NCBI GenBank assembly: GCA_025360815.1
Contig: JANYBL010000035.1
Span: 1 to 64,000, forward strand
Length of the DNA: 64,000 nucleotides
Reading direction: 5' to 3'
Source of the DNA: Burkholderiales bacterium
GTDB taxonomy: Bacteria; Pseudomonadota; Gammaproteobacteria; Burkholderiales; Usitatibacteraceae
How positions within the stretch are numbered: position 1 is the first letter of the stretch; every line of letters starts with the position of its first letter. The notes under the pieces are model-generated. The model saw nothing but the letters and a program-made list of their open reading frames with translations, did no database searches and had not been told where the DNA came from. Below are positions 55,818 to 62,519 of the stretch, piece after piece. The position numbers and the translations under genes are program-made.

Positions 55818-56696
55818 ATGTGTTTAGCAGCTTGGTCTATCCAACAACATGAGCGGTTTCCTTGGGTGCTTGCGTCTAACCGTGACGAATTTTTTGCGAG
55901 GCCGACGGCACCGCTAGGTTGGTGGCAACCTTCCGTGGGTGGGCAGGAGATTTTGAGCGGGCGTGATTTAGAAGCAGGTGGCAGCTGGCTCGGTGTGACG
56001 CGCCTTGGCCGGCTGGCTTTAGTGACGAATGTGCGGGAGCCCGGTCGTTTTGCAGCCGATGCGTTATCGCGCGGCTCATTGGTGACAGCGGGCTTGGCAG
56101 CGGATCAGGTAGATGCCGCTTGGCTCGATAAAGTTACCGAGGCGCCACGCAACGGGTTTAATTTTTTGGTGGCGGATTTGTTCACAGGCGAATGTGCGTG
56201 GGCAACCAACCGCACACCGCAATATCGGCAAATGCGAGCAGGGCTTTACGGGCTATCGAATGCATCGCTTGATACGCCATGGCCGAAAGTTGCGATGCTG
56301 AAAGAAAAACTGGCAGATGTGTTGAGGGTTTGTGCCAATATCAACGTGGTCGATGTGGCCAACACCAACGCCGACATCAATGTGAACGTGGCTGCAAATG
56401 TCGTAGCCGAGCAGCTATTTGCCGCGCTCGCCAATCCGCAGATTGCCGCCGATGCTGTGTTGCCCCAAACCGGCGTGCCGCTCGAACGCGAACGCTTATT
56501 GTCATCAGCGTTTATTCGTATTGCCGATGAAGGGAAGGCTCAGGCGGTTTATGGGACACGCTGCTCGACCGTGGTGATTGCCGAGCGGGTTGGCGATGCA
56601 AAAAATGCTACCAAGATAGTCCGGATGTTCGAGCGCGTGTTCGATGCCAGCGGGCGGGTTAGCAACAACACCGCCCTTCAATTTGAAGTGGTGTAA
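55818..56696 (+). CDS. NRDE (TANGO2-like) family protein
   Basis: 292 residues beginning MCLAAWSIQQHERFPWVLASNRDEFFARPTAPLGWW, with the Cys at position 2 and NRDE motif that name the family, then ILSGRDLEAGGSWLGVTRLGRLALVTNVREP and YGLSNASLDTPWPK. The N-terminal Cys2 could act as an Ntn-type nucleophile after Met removal. Eukaryotic TANGO2 is linked to heme/lipid handling; bacterial roles are unclear. A short Asn/Val-rich insert (NTNADINVNVAANV) is unusual. Its stop directly abuts the DoxX stop (convergent). Confidence 0.88.
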   Translation: MCLAAWSIQQHERFPWVLASNRDEFFARPTAPLGWWQPSVGGQEILSGRDLEAGGSWLGVTRLGRLALVTNVREPGRFAADALSRGSLVTAGLAADQVDAAWLDKVTEAPRNGFNFLVADLFTGECAWATNRTPQYRQMRAGLYGLSNASLDTPWPKVAMLKEKLADVLRVCANINVVDVANTNADINVNVAANVVAEQLFAALANPQIAADAVLPQTGVPLERERLLSSAFIRIADEGKAQAVYGTRCSTVVIAERVGDAKNATKIVRMFERVFDASGRVSNNTALQFEVV

Positions 56697-57197
56697 CTAA
56701 AATGATGTCGCTTTGCCAATGCCGAACTTCGCCAGCCAGCCGAGCCAAATTTCACGGCGAATCCACAGCATGATCGCGCAAGAAATCCAAACTCCGCATG
56801 CCAACATAAACAGCTCGCCGCCGTCACTAGTGCCGTCGGTATTGACCACCGCCACGCCGAGTGGCGTGAATAAATGAAAAAATATCGCGCCGCTGATCAC
56901 GCCCATGCCCATCGCTGCGCCGAGCACTTGTACCCAACGTTGGCGCGCTAACAAAGCACCGGCAATCACCAACATCGACGCGATTAGTTCAAACACGCCG
57001 ACCACATGCGCCGAGAAAATACCGCCCGGCGCAAAGATGCCGGGAAAGCCTAATGTAGCTGCCCACGGGTCAAGCTTGCCCTGAAAAATATAAATCGTCT
57101 CGGGCGAGTTGGTGAATTTAAAAAATAATGATTGAATAAATACAAACGCGACAAAGATTGTGAGCAGCCAATGGCCGTAACGGCGTAACCAAGACAT
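56697..57197 (-). CDS. DoxX-like integral membrane protein
   Basis: 166 residues with four hydrophobic segments (GHWLLTIFVAFVFIQSLFFKF, VVGVFELIASMLVIAGALL, VLGAAMGMGVISGAIFFHLF, LFMLACGVWISCAIMLWI). The FKFTNSPET and GVFELIASMLVIAGALL patterns are typical of DoxX-like proteins. No activity can be given. GGGAG lies 8 bases before the start. Downstream of the YHS gene by 33 bases, likely co-transcribed. Confidence 0.75.
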   Translation of the reverse strand: MSWLRRYGHWLLTIFVAFVFIQSLFFKFTNSPETIYIFQGKLDPWAATLGFPGIFAPGGIFSAHVVGVFELIASMLVIAGALLARQRWVQVLGAAMGMGVISGAIFFHLFTPLGVAVVNTDGTSDGGELFMLACGVWISCAIMLWIRREIWLGWLAKFGIGKATSF

Positions 57198-57230: not shown

Positions 57231-57743
57231 TTATTTTTTAAGTAAGGGCTGAAATTTGCTGTCGGCTTGCTTGATGTATCCCACCGGGTCTTTCAGCCAC
57301 TTCTGCTGAATATCGGCGTCGTAGTTCAGGTAAAGCTTTCCGTTGATAATCGTGAATTTATCGGGCTCAATGGTGACAAGGTTGTCAACGGCAACGCCGT
57401 AAGCACAGTAGCCGCCGTATTGCGGGGCGTATTTTTCTGGGTTAGCTTTGAACAAATCAAGATTTGCTTGCGAAGCAAATTTCCATTTAGCACCGTTCCA
57501 TTCGGTAGCAAAGGCATCTTGGCCTTTCGCCGGTTTGCCAATTGTGAAATAGGCGACCGGATCGTAACCCAAAATTGCTGTATCAGTGCGCCCGCCGAAG
57601 AGCCCGGTCTTTAACGTGTTGGATGGGGGCGATGCAGCAGCGGCTGCGCCCACAAATAGGCCAGCAAAAACAGCGGCGGCGAAGGCTGAGAATAATTTAG
57701 ATACGATTGAATGGCGACGGTTTTGAGTTAATGCTCTGAACAT
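57231..57743 (-). CDS. Exported YHS-domain protein
   Basis: 170 residues: a signal peptide (LFSAFAAAVFAGLFVGAAAAA), then a YHS domain (ILGYDPVAYFTIGKPAKGQDAFATEWNGAKWKFASQANLDLFKANPEKYAPQYGGYCAYGVA). The YHS fold is related to TRASH/metal-binding domains; periplasmic versions have no established function. AAGGAA precedes the start. The upstream gap holds three near-tandem copies of GGTGAATA (about 57790-57815). Confidence 0.87.
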   Translation of the reverse strand: MFRALTQNRRHSIVSKLFSAFAAAVFAGLFVGAAAAASPPSNTLKTGLFGGRTDTAILGYDPVAYFTIGKPAKGQDAFATEWNGAKWKFASQANLDLFKANPEKYAPQYGGYCAYGVAVDNLVTIEPDKFTIINGKLYLNYDADIQQKWLKDPVGYIKQADSKFQPLLKK

Positions 57744-57833: not shown

Positions 57834-58415
57834 CTATGGTGTGATTTTGATGTTCGTCGATGCGCTTGTTGCCCGTTCATAGGCAACCGTCGAGGGCGCT
57901 TTGCCAAAATCCTCGCTCAACAAAATGCCGGCCGTCTGACAATAGGGCCGCATGAGTGCGTAGTGATGCAGCGCATGGCTAGCAACAAACACCAGTTCGC
58001 GCCCGAACGTAGATGCAATCGTGAAATTAAAATCGCCTGCCAAGCCTCCCTGGCCGCGCACACGCAGTGGCGATTTCAGTAAACCGTTGTTGGCAACAAG
58101 GCGCTGACTGACTGCATGCAAGTGGCGGCGTGCGAGATTGGTGCTACGTTCCAACGCGCGGTCACGAACGCGGGCATCGTAATCGACGAACCCGGCAATA
58201 GCGGGCGAAAGTAGCGCATCGTAGTGCTCGATGATGTGCCGGAGGTGTGCACCGACCGGGCCTGCAAATGCAGCGGCATTATGCGAATCGAACAGATCCA
58301 AAAGCGAAGTCGCTTGGGCAATCACTTCCCGATTGAAATCGAGCAGCGCAATAGCGCCTTCGTCAGATTCAAGCGTTGTGGCTAACGATAGTTTGGATGT
58401 TGAAGCGGGCGTCAT
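57834..58415 (-). CDS. DinB-superfamily four-helix protein
   Basis: About 193 residues from ATG 58415, preceded by AAGG; the longer ORF start at 58502 is rejected. Histidines at the DinB metal positions are visible in HLRHIIEHYDALL and FVASHALHHYALMRPY. DinB-like proteins are metal-dependent enzymes such as thiol transferases (bacillithiol or mycothiol S-transferases); this one's substrate is unknown. It heads a possible DinB-YHS-DoxX operon. Confidence 0.78.
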   Translation of the reverse strand: MTPASTSKLSLATTLESDEGAIALLDFNREVIAQATSLLDLFDSHNAAAFAGPVGAHLRHIIEHYDALLSPAIAGFVDYDARVRDRALERSTNLARRHLHAVSQRLVANNGLLKSPLRVRGQGGLAGDFNFTIASTFGRELVFVASHALHHYALMRPYCQTAGILLSEDFGKAPSTVAYERATSASTNIKITP

Positions 58416-58628
58416 GCGCTGACCTTTTGCGTAATGAGGAGTGATTTTGCGAACGATCGCAAATGAATACGAATGCTTAGATAAAAAACTGATCAAAAGC
58501 AATTTGCAGGGTAGTCGGTTTTAATTACCGAGCCTTACAATAAAATATGCGGCCTTGACTGCCGCGTGTCATATATTATGTTTTCAATTCTATCGGAAAG
58601 GCTCTCAAGCGCTGGGTTAACCAAACGA

Positions 58629-59810
58629 TCAATCGGTGGCGGGATACTGTGGCGTGAGGAACTTTTCGCGTCGATAGCCGCGAATAAAGTCTTTGATGGT
58701 CATCGTTTTAAAGCCGCGTTTTCGATTCGCATGGCCAATTTCATAGAGCCAGCGGTATTGACGCATCAGATCCCGCCATGCCTCAAAAAGTCCGGTGCGG
58801 CGATCCCAGATATGCGTGCTTTCAGCGCCCGCGCCGTTGACCTCGACAATCGTAAATCCTGTGCCACGCTGGACATCGGCAAAGTCGGCAAAACGCACAT
58901 CAAAGCGACCAAAATAAAACTCCGGCAGGCTTTGTGAAATCGCGTCAAACCGCGCTTCCATCTCCGGGGTTACCAAGGCGGTGCCGTTGCGAAAAATAGC
59001 GCCGCGACTATGGCTGCCGGCGAACGCCAAGCGAATTGATTCGCCGGCAGCGGGAACACTATCCAGTTTGTCCGCATGTCGCGTGAGGTACAAATGCGGA
59101 AGCTGCCCGGCGCGCGGATCGTCAAGGATTAGCTGGCGCAAAGTACGCATGCTATCGCCAGTCACATAAGGGAAATATTTGAGCGTGACAGAAATAATTT
59201 TCCCATGGGGCTCGCTGGGATGGCGCACATAAAAAATCCCCGCTTCACCTTCGAACGGGACCAGTTTTTGCAATACCAAGCAAGCGCCGCGCGGGAAGGC
59301 AGCAAGATAGGCTTGCAGATCGGCACGCGTTCGCACTAGCTTCACCCCTGCGCCACGGCAGCCCAGATCCGGCTTGGCGACGATTGGAAGCGTGATGTTG
59401 GCATTCGCCATTGCGTCCAAAGCGGCGTCGCATTCTGATGCGAGATCATTTTCCAGCTCGGCCGACGAATCAATTTTCACAAAGGGCGCAACCCATTCCG
59501 GCGCATGTTTCACCGCCAGCTTGAGAATATCTGCTTTGGATTCACCAAAAAACCCGCCACCGGGGAACGATGGATTGGCGACGGTCGGCAACAAAATACT
59601 ACGATACCGTAACATCAACCCTGCGGCGTAAATCGCGATAGGCGGATAAAACGCCCACATCGGCCAGAACTCAAAAAAACTGAGTTGCGCTCCGTCCACA
59701 GCGAGTGGCGGCATGCCCTGATGTGGTTCGGTGGCGGGTCGCCATGGCGTTTTCGTTGATGCGTTGCAAGGGTCAGCGTGATCCAACAACGTTGCGGCGG
59801 GTTGCGTCAT
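58629..59810 (-). CDS. ATP-grasp ligase-like protein
   Basis: 393 residues. The N-terminal third holds hydrophobic stretches (FFEFWPMWAFYPPIAIYAAGLML). The ATP-grasp core follows: ITLPIVAKPDLGCRGAGVKLV (nucleotide-binding lysine and glycine loop), GACLVLQKLVPFEGEAGIFYVRHP, and the magnesium-site strand YFGRFDVRFADF...FTIVEVNGAGAES (E-x-N). The family joins a carboxylate to an amine, thiol or similar nucleophile (D-Ala-D-Ala ligase-like). The substrate is unknown. Its start overlaps the DedA stop by four bases (ATGA). Confidence 0.8.
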   Translation of the reverse strand: MTQPAATLLDHADPCNASTKTPWRPATEPHQGMPPLAVDGAQLSFFEFWPMWAFYPPIAIYAAGLMLRYRSILLPTVANPSFPGGGFFGESKADILKLAVKHAPEWVAPFVKIDSSAELENDLASECDAALDAMANANITLPIVAKPDLGCRGAGVKLVRTRADLQAYLAAFPRGACLVLQKLVPFEGEAGIFYVRHPSEPHGKIISVTLKYFPYVTGDSMRTLRQLILDDPRAGQLPHLYLTRHADKLDSVPAAGESIRLAFAGSHSRGAIFRNGTALVTPEMEARFDAISQSLPEFYFGRFDVRFADFADVQRGTGFTIVEVNGAGAESTHIWDRRTGLFEAWRDLMRQYRWLYEIGHANRKRGFKTMTIKDFIRGYRREKFLTPQYPATD

Positions 59811-60571
59811 ATTCGGCGGTGAGCACTAGCGTTGGGTGAGGGGACAGGCGAGTCGGTAAGCGCGGTGGTGAGAGAGGTGGCGGTGGGAGCGGACGTCGGC
59901 GCAGACGTCGAAGCAACCGCAGCAGCGGCTGATGCCGGTTTGGCTGTAGGCTTCAGGCGACGCCTGCCGAATTTTTGAAGCGTTCGCCAAGCAGGTATCG
60001 CAAGTGCCAGCAGCAAAATTGGCAATGCGGCCGCCAACACTAACGGAATGCCTAATGCCAAAGCAAGCGCATGGCCGATAGCAACGCTAAACACATATAA
60101 ACTGCCTGTCCATAGCGCCACGGCGACCAAAACCCATCCGCAAAACAGCACGAACGGGACGCGGACAAAACCGGCTACTGTATACGTCACCAAACGCAGG
60201 CCAGGTATTACTCTTGCCAGCAAAATCGCGCTCGACAAACGCCGTTGCAATTGCGCGCGCCCCCAATCCGCTTTTTCACCGACGTATCGTTGTCTCAGCC
60301 ACGGAATGCGAGTTGCTGCGACTCCTAGGGCATACAAACCAACATCGCCCGCCGCAATACCCCCCGCGACGGCTGCCAACGATAGGCTCCATGAGATGGT
60401 ACCCTGCACCGCCAACGCAACGCCTGCCGCGATCGCGACATCCTCTAATAAAAATGTGGTCAGCACCAATACCACCACAATCACCCAAGGATCAGCCATG
60501 CCGACCAAAGCATCTTTAAAGGTCATCGTCAGGTTGTGCCGATCTATGGCATGGGCAAAAGTAATCAACAT
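59807..60571 (-). CDS. DedA-family (VTT domain) membrane protein
   Basis: 254 residues: FLLEDVAIAAGVALAVQGTISWSLSLAAVAGGIAAGDVGLYALGVAATR, then the conserved RVIPGLRLVTYTVAGFVRVPFVLF (xRFIPGxR-type DedA motif). DedA proteins include undecaprenyl-phosphate and phospholipid flippases. The last 50 residues are an unusual Ala/Ser/Thr/Pro-rich cytoplasmic tail. It overlaps the upstream hydrolase gene by 7 bases and the ATP-grasp gene by 4, so the three are translationally linked. Confidence 0.85.
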   Translation of the reverse strand: MLITFAHAIDRHNLTMTFKDALVGMADPWVIVVVLVLTTFLLEDVAIAAGVALAVQGTISWSLSLAAVAGGIAAGDVGLYALGVAATRIPWLRQRYVGEKADWGRAQLQRRLSSAILLARVIPGLRLVTYTVAGFVRVPFVLFCGWVLVAVALWTGSLYVFSVAIGHALALALGIPLVLAAALPILLLALAIPAWRTLQKFGRRRLKPTAKPASAAAAVASTSAPTSAPTATSLTTALTDSPVPSPNASAHRRI

Positions 60572-61530
60572 TTTTCCTTTGATGCGGCACTAATTTCGGA
60601 ATCAGTGGTGTGAGTCGCCGCCTGCAGAATCGCATTGCGCACGACATCGACCGAGTTCCAAGGCAAAAAATGGTTCCGCCCCTCCAGCAAAACTGTCGTA
60701 ACGCACGCGGCTCCAGTGAGGCGCGCTTGCATGTACGCAACATTGGCAACTGGAACGAGATCGTCTTTTGTGCCGTGAACAATAATTATTTTCGCACGAA
60801 TAGCGGGCAATAAGTCCCTCAGCTTTTGCAGCTCGTCCTTGAGCGCAATGAGCTCTGCATTTGCGTTGCGCATCGCGCGCGGCAGAAAAAAACGCACTGG
60901 CGACCAAGCCCCCACCCATTGCATCGGGTGTATCGATTCGAGTCCGGGATCAAGCGACGCGGCGAGCAGTACCACTGCGCTAATACGATTGGGATGCATT
61001 GCCGCAACCTGTGCAACAATCGGGCCGCCAAGCGAATGCCCGAGCAATACAACTTGCCGCCCGTCCTTCGGCAATAACGCCGTTACCGCGTCTGCTTGCG
61101 CCGCCAGACTGGTCACGGCGTCTTCCGGGCTGCTTTGGCCGAAACCGGGCCGATCAAGCGCAATCACTTCCATGCCGGGCGGTGGATAGAGCAAATAGTC
61201 AGCCCAGCCGATCGCTTCACCCGGCGTGCCGTGAACCAGTATTAGCAGCGGTCCGTTCGCGACGCCGCCACGCAGAATACTCAGCTCTTGTTCCGGTTTG
61301 TCAGGCACCCCCTGCATGTTAATGCGCCGCTTTTCGCGCAGCTTGTCGGCAACCGATTCGTCCGCTTGCGGGCCGGGCAAGGAACAACCCAATAGCGTCA
61401 GCACAACGCCAATCGCGCTCCACAGCTTGCTGCGGGCGGGCGCGTGATCCCGGCGGCTAACCAGCCATTTGCCGGTGCGTATGCCGACCTGTTTTCGTGG
61501 CGCAGATGGTGTTTTGTTCTTCAAAGGCAT
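60565..61530 (-). CDS. Alpha/beta hydrolase, membrane-anchored or lipoprotein-like
   Basis: About 321 residues from ATG 61530; the ORF track extends to 61575. A basic N-terminus is followed by a helix ending in VVLTLLGCSLPG, which could be a lipobox. The hydrolase fold shows LILVHGTPGEAIGWADYL (oxyanion HG), VVLLGHSLGGPIVAQ (nucleophile Ser), IIIVHGTKDDLVPV (Asp) and EGRNHFLPW (His), so the triad is complete. An esterase, lipase or thioesterase acting at the membrane is likely. First gene of the leftward hydrolase-DedA-ATP-grasp operon. Confidence 0.85.
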   Translation of the reverse strand: MPLKNKTPSAPRKQVGIRTGKWLVSRRDHAPARSKLWSAIGVVLTLLGCSLPGPQADESVADKLREKRRINMQGVPDKPEQELSILRGGVANGPLLILVHGTPGEAIGWADYLLYPPPGMEVIALDRPGFGQSSPEDAVTSLAAQADAVTALLPKDGRQVVLLGHSLGGPIVAQVAAMHPNRISAVVLLAASLDPGLESIHPMQWVGAWSPVRFFLPRAMRNANAELIALKDELQKLRDLLPAIRAKIIIVHGTKDDLVPVANVAYMQARLTGAACVTTVLLEGRNHFLPWNSVDVVRNAILQAATHTTDSEISAASKEKC

Positions 61531-61577
61531 GTCGTTTATTCGTTTATCCACATTTATGTCGGCTAAACGATTCATCC

Positions 61578-61595
61578 CTTACAGAAAACTGTAAG
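61578..61595. promoter_or_regulatory. 18-bp palindrome in the divergent hydrolase/olsB region
   Basis: CTTACAG-AAAA-CTGTAAG: perfect 7-bp arms around four A residues. It lies 48 bases upstream of the hydrolase ATG and 157 bases upstream of olsB. There is no T-tract on either side, so an operator for a dimeric regulator is more likely than a terminator. The symmetry is certain; the binding role is inference. Confidence 0.45.
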
Positions 61596-61620
61596 TTCTA
61601 GATGCTTGTCGCGACCAATC

Positions 61621-61660
61621 TTCTTAGAAAACAGTTCAAATTCTTAGAAAACAGTTCAAA
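61621..61660. repeat. Perfect 20-bp tandem duplication upstream of olsB
   Basis: Two identical adjacent 20-base units beginning TTCTTAGAAAACAG. The units share AGAAAAC with the nearby palindrome. A spacing of 20 bases is close to two helical turns, so both copies would face the same side of the DNA. This may be a regulator binding array or a recent replication slip. Confidence 0.7.
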
Positions 61661-61703
61661 TTTTCTCAACTGAGCGCGTTCAATCTTACACAAAAGCGCA
61701 AGC

Positions 61704-61727
61704 GCTAAATTTGATGCTAAATTTGAT
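61704..61727. repeat. Perfect 12-bp tandem duplication just before olsB
   Basis: GCTAAATTTGAT occurs twice in direct succession, ending 25 bases before the olsB ATG. It lies in the expected leader or promoter region, so copy number could shift spacing and expression. Confidence 0.6.
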
Positions 61728-61751
61728 CTTAACCATAAGTACGGTCGCCCA

Positions 61752-62519
61752 ATGATGAACACCACTACTGGCAGTAAATCGTTCTTCAAATCATCCGCCA
61801 AATCGGCCTATCAGGCACGCTTAGCAACGACGCCCGTCGAAATTCAATGCGCGCAAGCCCTACGTTTTGAAGTGTTTAATCTGGAACTCAATGAAGGGCT
61901 CTTAGAGTCATTTGACTTCGGCTTAGACGCGGATGCCTTTGATGCTGTTTGTGCGCATCTGATTGTAGAGCACACCGCTACGGGCAAAATTATTGGTACT
62001 TATCGGATGCAAACCGGATTGAGTGCAAAACAACATTTGGGATATTACAGCGAGCGGGAATTTGATTTCGCGCCGTTTGAGCCCATGCGAACCCAGATGC
62101 TTGAGCTGGGACGCGCTTGTATTAGCGCGGACCACCGGAATTTTGCGGTGCTCAATTTGCTTTGGAAAGGTATTGCAAGCTATGCGGAGAATCATGGGAC
62201 GCGTTATTTAATTGGCTGTAGTTCATTGACCAGTCAAGACAAGGCGTTGGGTGCAACTGCATATCAAGCAATGTCTGCTCGCTGGGCGACGAATTCTTGG
62301 CAAACGCGTCCGCAGCCCGGCTTTGAATGCATAGCCACTCCGTCTGGCGAGGCGCCAAAGATTCCGCGCTTACTATCTGCTTATCTTGCCCTAGGCGCCT
62401 CCATTTGCAGCCCGCCAGCGATTGATCGTGCCTTCAAGACGATTGATTTTTTGACGATGCTCGACGTGCATTCACCCAACGTGGTGGCGCTGCAGAAGCG
62501 CGGACGTTTTACTGCGTAG
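61752..62519 (+). CDS. olsB: OlsB-like L-ornithine N-alpha-acyltransferase (GNAT)
   Basis: 255 residues: an early VEIQCAQALRFEVFNLELNEG, DAVCAHLIVEHTATGKIIGTYRMQT, then MLELGRACISADHRNFAVLNLLWKGIASYAENHGTRYLIGCSSL. This is the pattern of the hemolysin/OlsB acyl-ACP-dependent acyltransferase family. OlsB makes lyso-ornithine lipid, which OlsA completes; olsA is not seen here. Ornithine lipids replace phospholipids when phosphate is low. The start ATG 61752 or 61755 has no clear Shine-Dalgarno. Confidence 0.78.
   Translation: MMNTTTGSKSFFKSSAKSAYQARLATTPVEIQCAQALRFEVFNLELNEGLLESFDFGLDADAFDAVCAHLIVEHTATGKIIGTYRMQTGLSAKQHLGYYSEREFDFAPFEPMRTQMLELGRACISADHRNFAVLNLLWKGIASYAENHGTRYLIGCSSLTSQDKALGATAYQAMSARWATNSWQTRPQPGFECIATPSGEAPKIPRLLSAYLALGASICSPPAIDRAFKTIDFLTMLDVHSPNVVALQKRGRFTA

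Follow-up and report, generated by a model that had tools for sequence, protein, structure and literature searches.

The window examined here, a 64,000-nucleotide stretch of DNA from a Burkholderiales bacterium, carries a form of a gene cluster that is widespread in Proteobacteria, though patchy in its distribution, and that distantly related bacteria, Vibrio among them, have in common. We propose, with moderate confidence, that this cluster makes and modifies an ornithine-type aminolipid, a membrane lipid free of phosphorus. The link between the cluster and aminolipids is well supported; that a ligation takes place, what its second substrate would be and that the lipid is flipped are what we infer from the genes. 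In the proposed pathway OlsB (elsewhere OlsF) would N-acylate an amino acid, most likely ornithine, and a membrane-attached ATP-grasp enzyme would spend ATP on activating a carboxylate, for which the free carboxyl group of the lipid head is the likeliest candidate. Joining of the activated carboxylate to an amine would yield an extended head group of the ornithine-taurine or glycine-serine kind, and the tightly coupled DedA protein would move the finished lipid from one side of the inner membrane to the other. An exported PlaF-like hydrolase could then trim or remodel the acyl chains in beta- and alphaproteobacteria, and the YHS, DoxX-like, DinB and TANGO2 proteins may perform accessory steps.

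The cluster genes of the window are listed in Table 1. The open reading frames of the hydrolase, DedA and ATP-grasp proteins lie where an earlier note on this DNA had placed them, with overlaps of 7 nt (hydrolase/DedA) and 4 nt (DedA/ATP-grasp). The catalytic motifs that it had read as intact were found to be conserved: an alignment of 15 relatives shows no change in the Ser-Asp-His triad of the hydrolase (S181-D271-H302), and the lysine and the metal-binding acidic and Asn residues of the ATP-grasp protein (K146, D304, E323 and N325) are invariant in 42 sequences. The OlsB-like acyltransferase said to face the trio was also confirmed.

Table 1. Features of the cluster in the window (exact gene starts are approximate)
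Feature	Position	Strand	Length	Remarks
TANGO2 (NRDE) protein, N-terminal Cys2	55818..56696	+		
DoxX-like membrane protein	56697..57197	-		weak Pfam match
YHS-domain protein	57231..57743	-		signal peptide at the N-terminus, as seen by eye; VCA0647 homologue
DinB-superfamily-like protein	57834..58502	-		likely start ATG 58415; homologue of VCA0649
ATP-grasp ligase	58629..59810	-	393 aa	ORF list, 42-sequence alignment, model, profile searches
DedA/VTT-family membrane protein	59807..60571	-	254 aa	ORF list, alignment, VTT matches
Alpha/beta hydrolase	60565..61575	-	336 aa	ORF list; alternative ATG 61530 (start used in the earlier note)
Divergent intergenic region	61576..61751	.	176 bp	between hydrolase and OlsB-like gene
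OlsB-like GNAT N-acyltransferase	61752..62519	+		cluster-specific clade; divergent from trio; Acetyltransf_5 E=5e-29

A genome scan with the ATP-grasp protein located 59 loci, spread over Beta-, Gamma- and Alphaproteobacteria. With the loci from whole-genome searches and the window itself the set comprised 74 loci, which were scanned with iterated profiles; many of them come from metagenome bins, and L020 and L114 are apparently one contig. The companions of the ATP-grasp gene over this set are OlsB or OlsF, DedA and the DinB-like, YHS, TANGO2 and DoxX-like genes. In 58 of the 74 loci, and in 40 of the 47 that have 6 kb on both sides, an OlsB or OlsF gene lies no more than 6 kb from the ATP-grasp gene; by our own estimate, if a genome of about 4 Mb has one Ols gene or two, such a neighbour is expected by chance in about 1% or less of cases. 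The usual order in Burkholderiales is OlsB (divergent), hydrolase, DedA, ATP-grasp, DinB, YHS and DoxX-like, with a rearranged variant in which the YHS and DoxX-like genes come first. The order of the trio is kept in several Burkholderiales families and in two Alphaproteobacteria (L032 and L053), and so beyond close relatives; found again in dozens of loci, the arrangement of the genes is not due to chance.

Two arrangements were found in Gammaproteobacteria. In one, the ATP-grasp gene immediately precedes OlsF or overlaps it, in many cases by several bases; in the other, the order is DedA, ATP-grasp, DinB, TANGO2, YHS, (DoxX-like), OlsF. The trio is not the functional unit: the wider core consists of DedA, ATP-grasp, OlsB/OlsF, DinB and YHS (with TANGO2 and DoxX-like), and the hydrolase is peripheral. 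Of the lipid or cell-wall precursor pathway postulated in the earlier note, the aminolipid part is supported by the Ols neighbours, and the cell-wall precursor part found no support here. The adjacency or overlap with Ols genes was counted for the proposed pathway. Counted against it were DedA-ATP-grasp pairs that have no nearby Ols gene, found in several Alphaproteobacteria and one Burkholderiales genome (L041, L044, L055, L105, L110, L111 and L113), and ATP-grasp-OlsF pairs that have no nearby DedA, found in some Gammaproteobacteria.

The best NCBIfam model for the window acyltransferase is an OlsB, with scores below the curated cut-offs (126 vs 320 and 124 vs 350 bits). The host genome has two OlsB genes, that of the window and a second (C81) of a type that occurs throughout the family. 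The former falls in a clade of its own, apart from the other OlsB of the family and made up of cluster members only, which was taken as a further point in favour of the pathway. The second OlsB of the genome (L116:7030-8407) lies near what by eye alone look like genes for photosynthesis, one coding for a PuhE-like protein and the other an AcsF-like fragment. In the divergent region a dyad with 7-bp arms (CTTACAG-AAAA-CTGTAAG, 61578-61595) was recognized by eye, and there are two exact tandem repeats, of a 20-mer (61621-61660) and of a 12-mer (61704-61727); the dyad and the repeats are candidate operators.

The ATP-grasp protein matches its Pfam family weakly (PF02222, 20.3 bits, under the 27-bit cutoff), and its sequence similarity to solved enzymes, which was counted against the proposal, is also weak (best E 7e-7 in a PDB profile search, with a CphA-type enzyme on top). 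Its AlphaFold model (pLDDT 86.8) matches ATP-grasp structures, with Foldseek E-values of about 1e-10 against CphA, GshF and Ddl. Taken together, the fold, the conserved lysine and the metal-binding acidic and Asn residues, seen in 42 sequences, place the protein in the ATP-grasp superfamily, and its catalytic core is CphA/GshF/RimK-like. CphA, GshF and Ddl are amide-forming ligases acting on carboxylates, and such structural relatives speak for the pathway. A hydrophobic helix region near the N-terminus (residues about 44-70) probably attaches the protein to the membrane.

More specific assignments were rejected. A D-alanine-D-alanine ligase is not indicated, as the best Ddl match in the PDB profile search has E=0.002, CphA-type enzymes rank first and the likeness to Ddl is at the level of the fold only. 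The protein shares with the ATP-grasp domain of cyanophycin synthetase and GshF the catalytic core and a GDGxSTLxELI stretch. In contrast to cyanophycin synthetase, a multidomain enzyme of about 870 aa, it has 393 aa, lacks the other CphA domains, is probably membrane-attached, forms a separate family and scores 20-22 bits against cutoffs of 850-877. A role in peptidoglycan synthesis, prompted by one D-Ala-D-Ala ligase annotation, was discarded, since the nearest relatives are CphA-type and no conserved cell-wall neighbours were recognized.

The assignment of the membrane protein to the DedA/VTT family is based on the VTT domain, which is matched by 23 of 25 aligned members (the window protein alone falls short), and on conserved motifs: E43-D44, D76 and R120-x-x-P-G are invariant, and R126 is nearly so. 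A PDB search with the DedA profile gave no match. In two loci, L112 (576 aa) and L113 (603 aa), DedA and ATP-grasp are encoded in one open frame, and these fusions were counted in favour of the proposal. Because the ATP-grasp gene stands beside OlsF and is fused with a membrane transporter fold, head-group extension followed by flipping, in which DedA would move the lipid across the membrane, is the simplest reading. The same gene associations would also fit if the ATP-grasp enzyme coupled the carboxylate of an amino acid to the delta-amine of ornithine lipid, or made a dipeptide that OlsB or OlsF acylated later. Dipeptides are made by ATP-grasp enzymes such as D-Ala-D-Ala ligase, which is among the Foldseek matches, and a serine-glycine head group is known (PMC12493201). 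However, the hydrophobic N-terminus and the DedA fusions favour a lipid over a soluble substrate, and a dipeptide is not needed by VCA0646, which on its own gives plain ornithine lipid in E. coli (PMC12186959). We regard this alternative as unlikely. The plain product, together with the lack of any report of an extended lipid in the available part of that paper, was also counted against extension of the head group, the reading preferred here.

The hydrolase (Abhydrolase_1, E=4e-24) carries at its N-terminus a lipobox-like LLGC or a signal anchor, the lipobox-like cysteine being present in about two thirds of its relatives, and for this reason it is predicted to be exported and probably acts outside the cytoplasm. 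Its nearest solved structure, and best PDB sequence match, is the phospholipase A PlaF (6I8W), which was counted in favour of the pathway. PlaF combines an N-terminal membrane anchor with a periplasmic alpha/beta hydrolase domain, a layout that the window protein, with its anchor or lipobox-like N-terminus and its triad, may share as a candidate phospholipase; but only about 130 residues align well, and many related hydrolases score nearly as high. Another related hydrolase whose N-terminus is lipobox-like is encoded at L057:3762-4802, a few kb away from the cluster there.

The hydrolase gene was found in 24 of 28 OlsB loci but in merely 2 of 30 OlsF loci; it is thus a peripheral part of the cluster, almost absent where OlsF replaces OlsB. 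OlsB on its own has no O-acyltransferase, and this was counted against the proposal, as either the hydrolase or a gene elsewhere in the genome must then supply the O-acylation. OlsI (Sinac_1601) is an O-acyltransferase of the alpha/beta-hydrolase type (PMC12493201), and the distribution over OlsB and OlsF loci would be explained if the hydrolase were an OlsI-like enzyme completing the lipid of the stand-alone OlsB, which OlsF clusters would not need. We consider this improbable, for the N-terminus would put the hydrolase outside the cytoplasm, where it would not meet acyl-ACP, the structure most like it is that of a phospholipase, and the pattern could also reflect the history of the lineages.

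Among the accessory proteins, the DinB-like protein has invariant His residues at a putative metal site. Its profile matches are weak (7 of 17 members match DinB and 6 of 17 DinB_2, the window protein neither), and a PDB search with the DinB profile found nothing. A structure model of the YHS protein (pLDDT 75) gave no useful PDB match. TANGO2 is co-oriented within the operon in Gammaproteobacteria and lies on the opposite strand in the window. On contig C54, beyond the window, there is an open frame of >860 aa with S/T/V-rich NVSTSLGNVSTSL-type repeats (L129:8472-11057).

In 148 Vibrio genomes the ATP-grasp gene was found in 71, and the cluster DedA and cluster DinB genes in 70 each. DedA and DinB adjoin the ATP-grasp gene and were never found without it, and two carriers lack one partner (DinB in G806, DedA in G793). 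This co-occurrence (Fisher p=4e-42, genomes counted without regard to kinship) was counted for the pathway. Split or stop-containing copies of the ATP-grasp gene were seen in three Vibrio genomes, with the cluster DedA and DinB still adjoining (G789:C2:2697555-2699259, G871:C3:1278989-1280070 and G909:C3:1043745-1044823).

The published primer for VCA0646 matched exactly in one of the 148 genomes, G810, whose species identity was taken from the primer matches. The gene order there is DedA-ATPgrasp-DinB-TANGO2-YHS-OlsF, and the VCA0649 primer falls at the start of DinB, the VCA0646 primer at that of OlsF. By position, DedA was assigned to VCA0651, ATP-grasp to VCA0650, DinB to VCA0649, TANGO2 to VCA0648, YHS to VCA0647 and OlsF to VCA0646. 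This order, which was counted in favour of the proposal, shows the published vca0646-0649 operon to be the downstream part of a larger cluster. The V. cholerae locus resembles the window in its homologous YHS, TANGO2 and DinB genes and in having an Ols synthase, with DedA and ATP-grasp upstream; unlike it, the window has OlsB in place of OlsF, and hydrolase and DoxX-like genes in addition.

The vca0646-0649 operon has published ties to low-salinity ornithine lipid, to tolerance of polymyxin and to cell death under quorum sensing. At low salinity ornithine lipid is the product of VCA0646, and cells that have lost VCA0646 are more susceptible to polymyxin (PMC12186959). Overexpression of vca0646 and vca0647 drives cell death, deletion of the operon being without effect, in a study that describes the proteins as of unknown function (PMC11573629). 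In RNA-seq of a VCA0231 mutant VCA0646-7, VCA0648-9 and VCA0650-1, the last pair listed as D-alanine-D-alanine ligase and hypothetical protein, were down together (log2 -1.98, -2.08 and -2.94; PMC7600106); this joint fall was counted for the pathway. In the same mutant cpxP, msrB, copG and thioredoxin genes change along with the locus (PMC7600106). This response and the cell death would fit a module for envelope stress or cell death that has several independent functions, aminolipid synthesis being one of them, and whose ATP-grasp enzyme has some other substrate, for example a thiol peptide or metal ligand; the conserved His and Cys residues of the DinB and YHS proteins could bind metal. Taking into account that the commonest partner of the ATP-grasp gene is OlsF or OlsB, and that many Gammaproteobacterial loci contain ATP-grasp and OlsF alone out of the known set, such a module is doubtful.

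In the host the presence of the cluster is patchy and it was perhaps acquired, because the ATP-grasp gene is rare in the order (3 of 399 sampled Burkholderiales genomes, the host included) and no ortholog was found in any of 27 sampled family relatives, where the one other match (E=6e-4, 28% identity) is a non-ortholog. The GC content of the trio (56%, against a window mean of 52%) is weakly consistent with transfer. In the relative G018 the left-flank gene is kept (64-65% identity) and the cluster is absent; a clean empty site was not obtained, since the NDH-2 gene of the right flank has no clear ortholog among the same-genus relatives tested.

In the literature no paper was found that covers the whole cluster, places the upstream DedA and ATP-grasp genes within the vca0646-0649 locus, or is relevant to an ATP-grasp enzyme with ornithine lipid or DedA. 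The cluster shares with the OlsBA and OlsF pathways of ornithine lipid synthesis the N-acyltransferase families and the class of product, an amino lipid, whereas their known versions have no ATP-grasp ligase or DedA protein. The expected product, with its amide-extended head group, is of the same kind as ornithine-taurine lipid (cerilipin type), although taurine as co-substrate is here a guess; no gene named for that extension was found in the papers searched.

Tentatively, and with more doubt than conviction, we suggest that the cluster may encode the first known ATP-grasp enzyme ligating a group onto a membrane aminolipid head. Its DedA partner, to which it is coupled and in two genomes fused, would then serve to flip this one lipid, and the lipid may underlie the polymyxin tolerance and quorum-sensing cell death assigned to V. 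cholerae vca0646-0649. If so, the extension of ornithine-type head groups, for which no named enzyme was found, would have its gene, and through the fusion with the ligase a DedA protein would gain a defined candidate substrate. The vca0646-0649 operon would be recast as one portion of a lipid pathway whose two upstream genes had been overlooked, and its cell-death and polymyxin phenotypes would thereby become directly testable.
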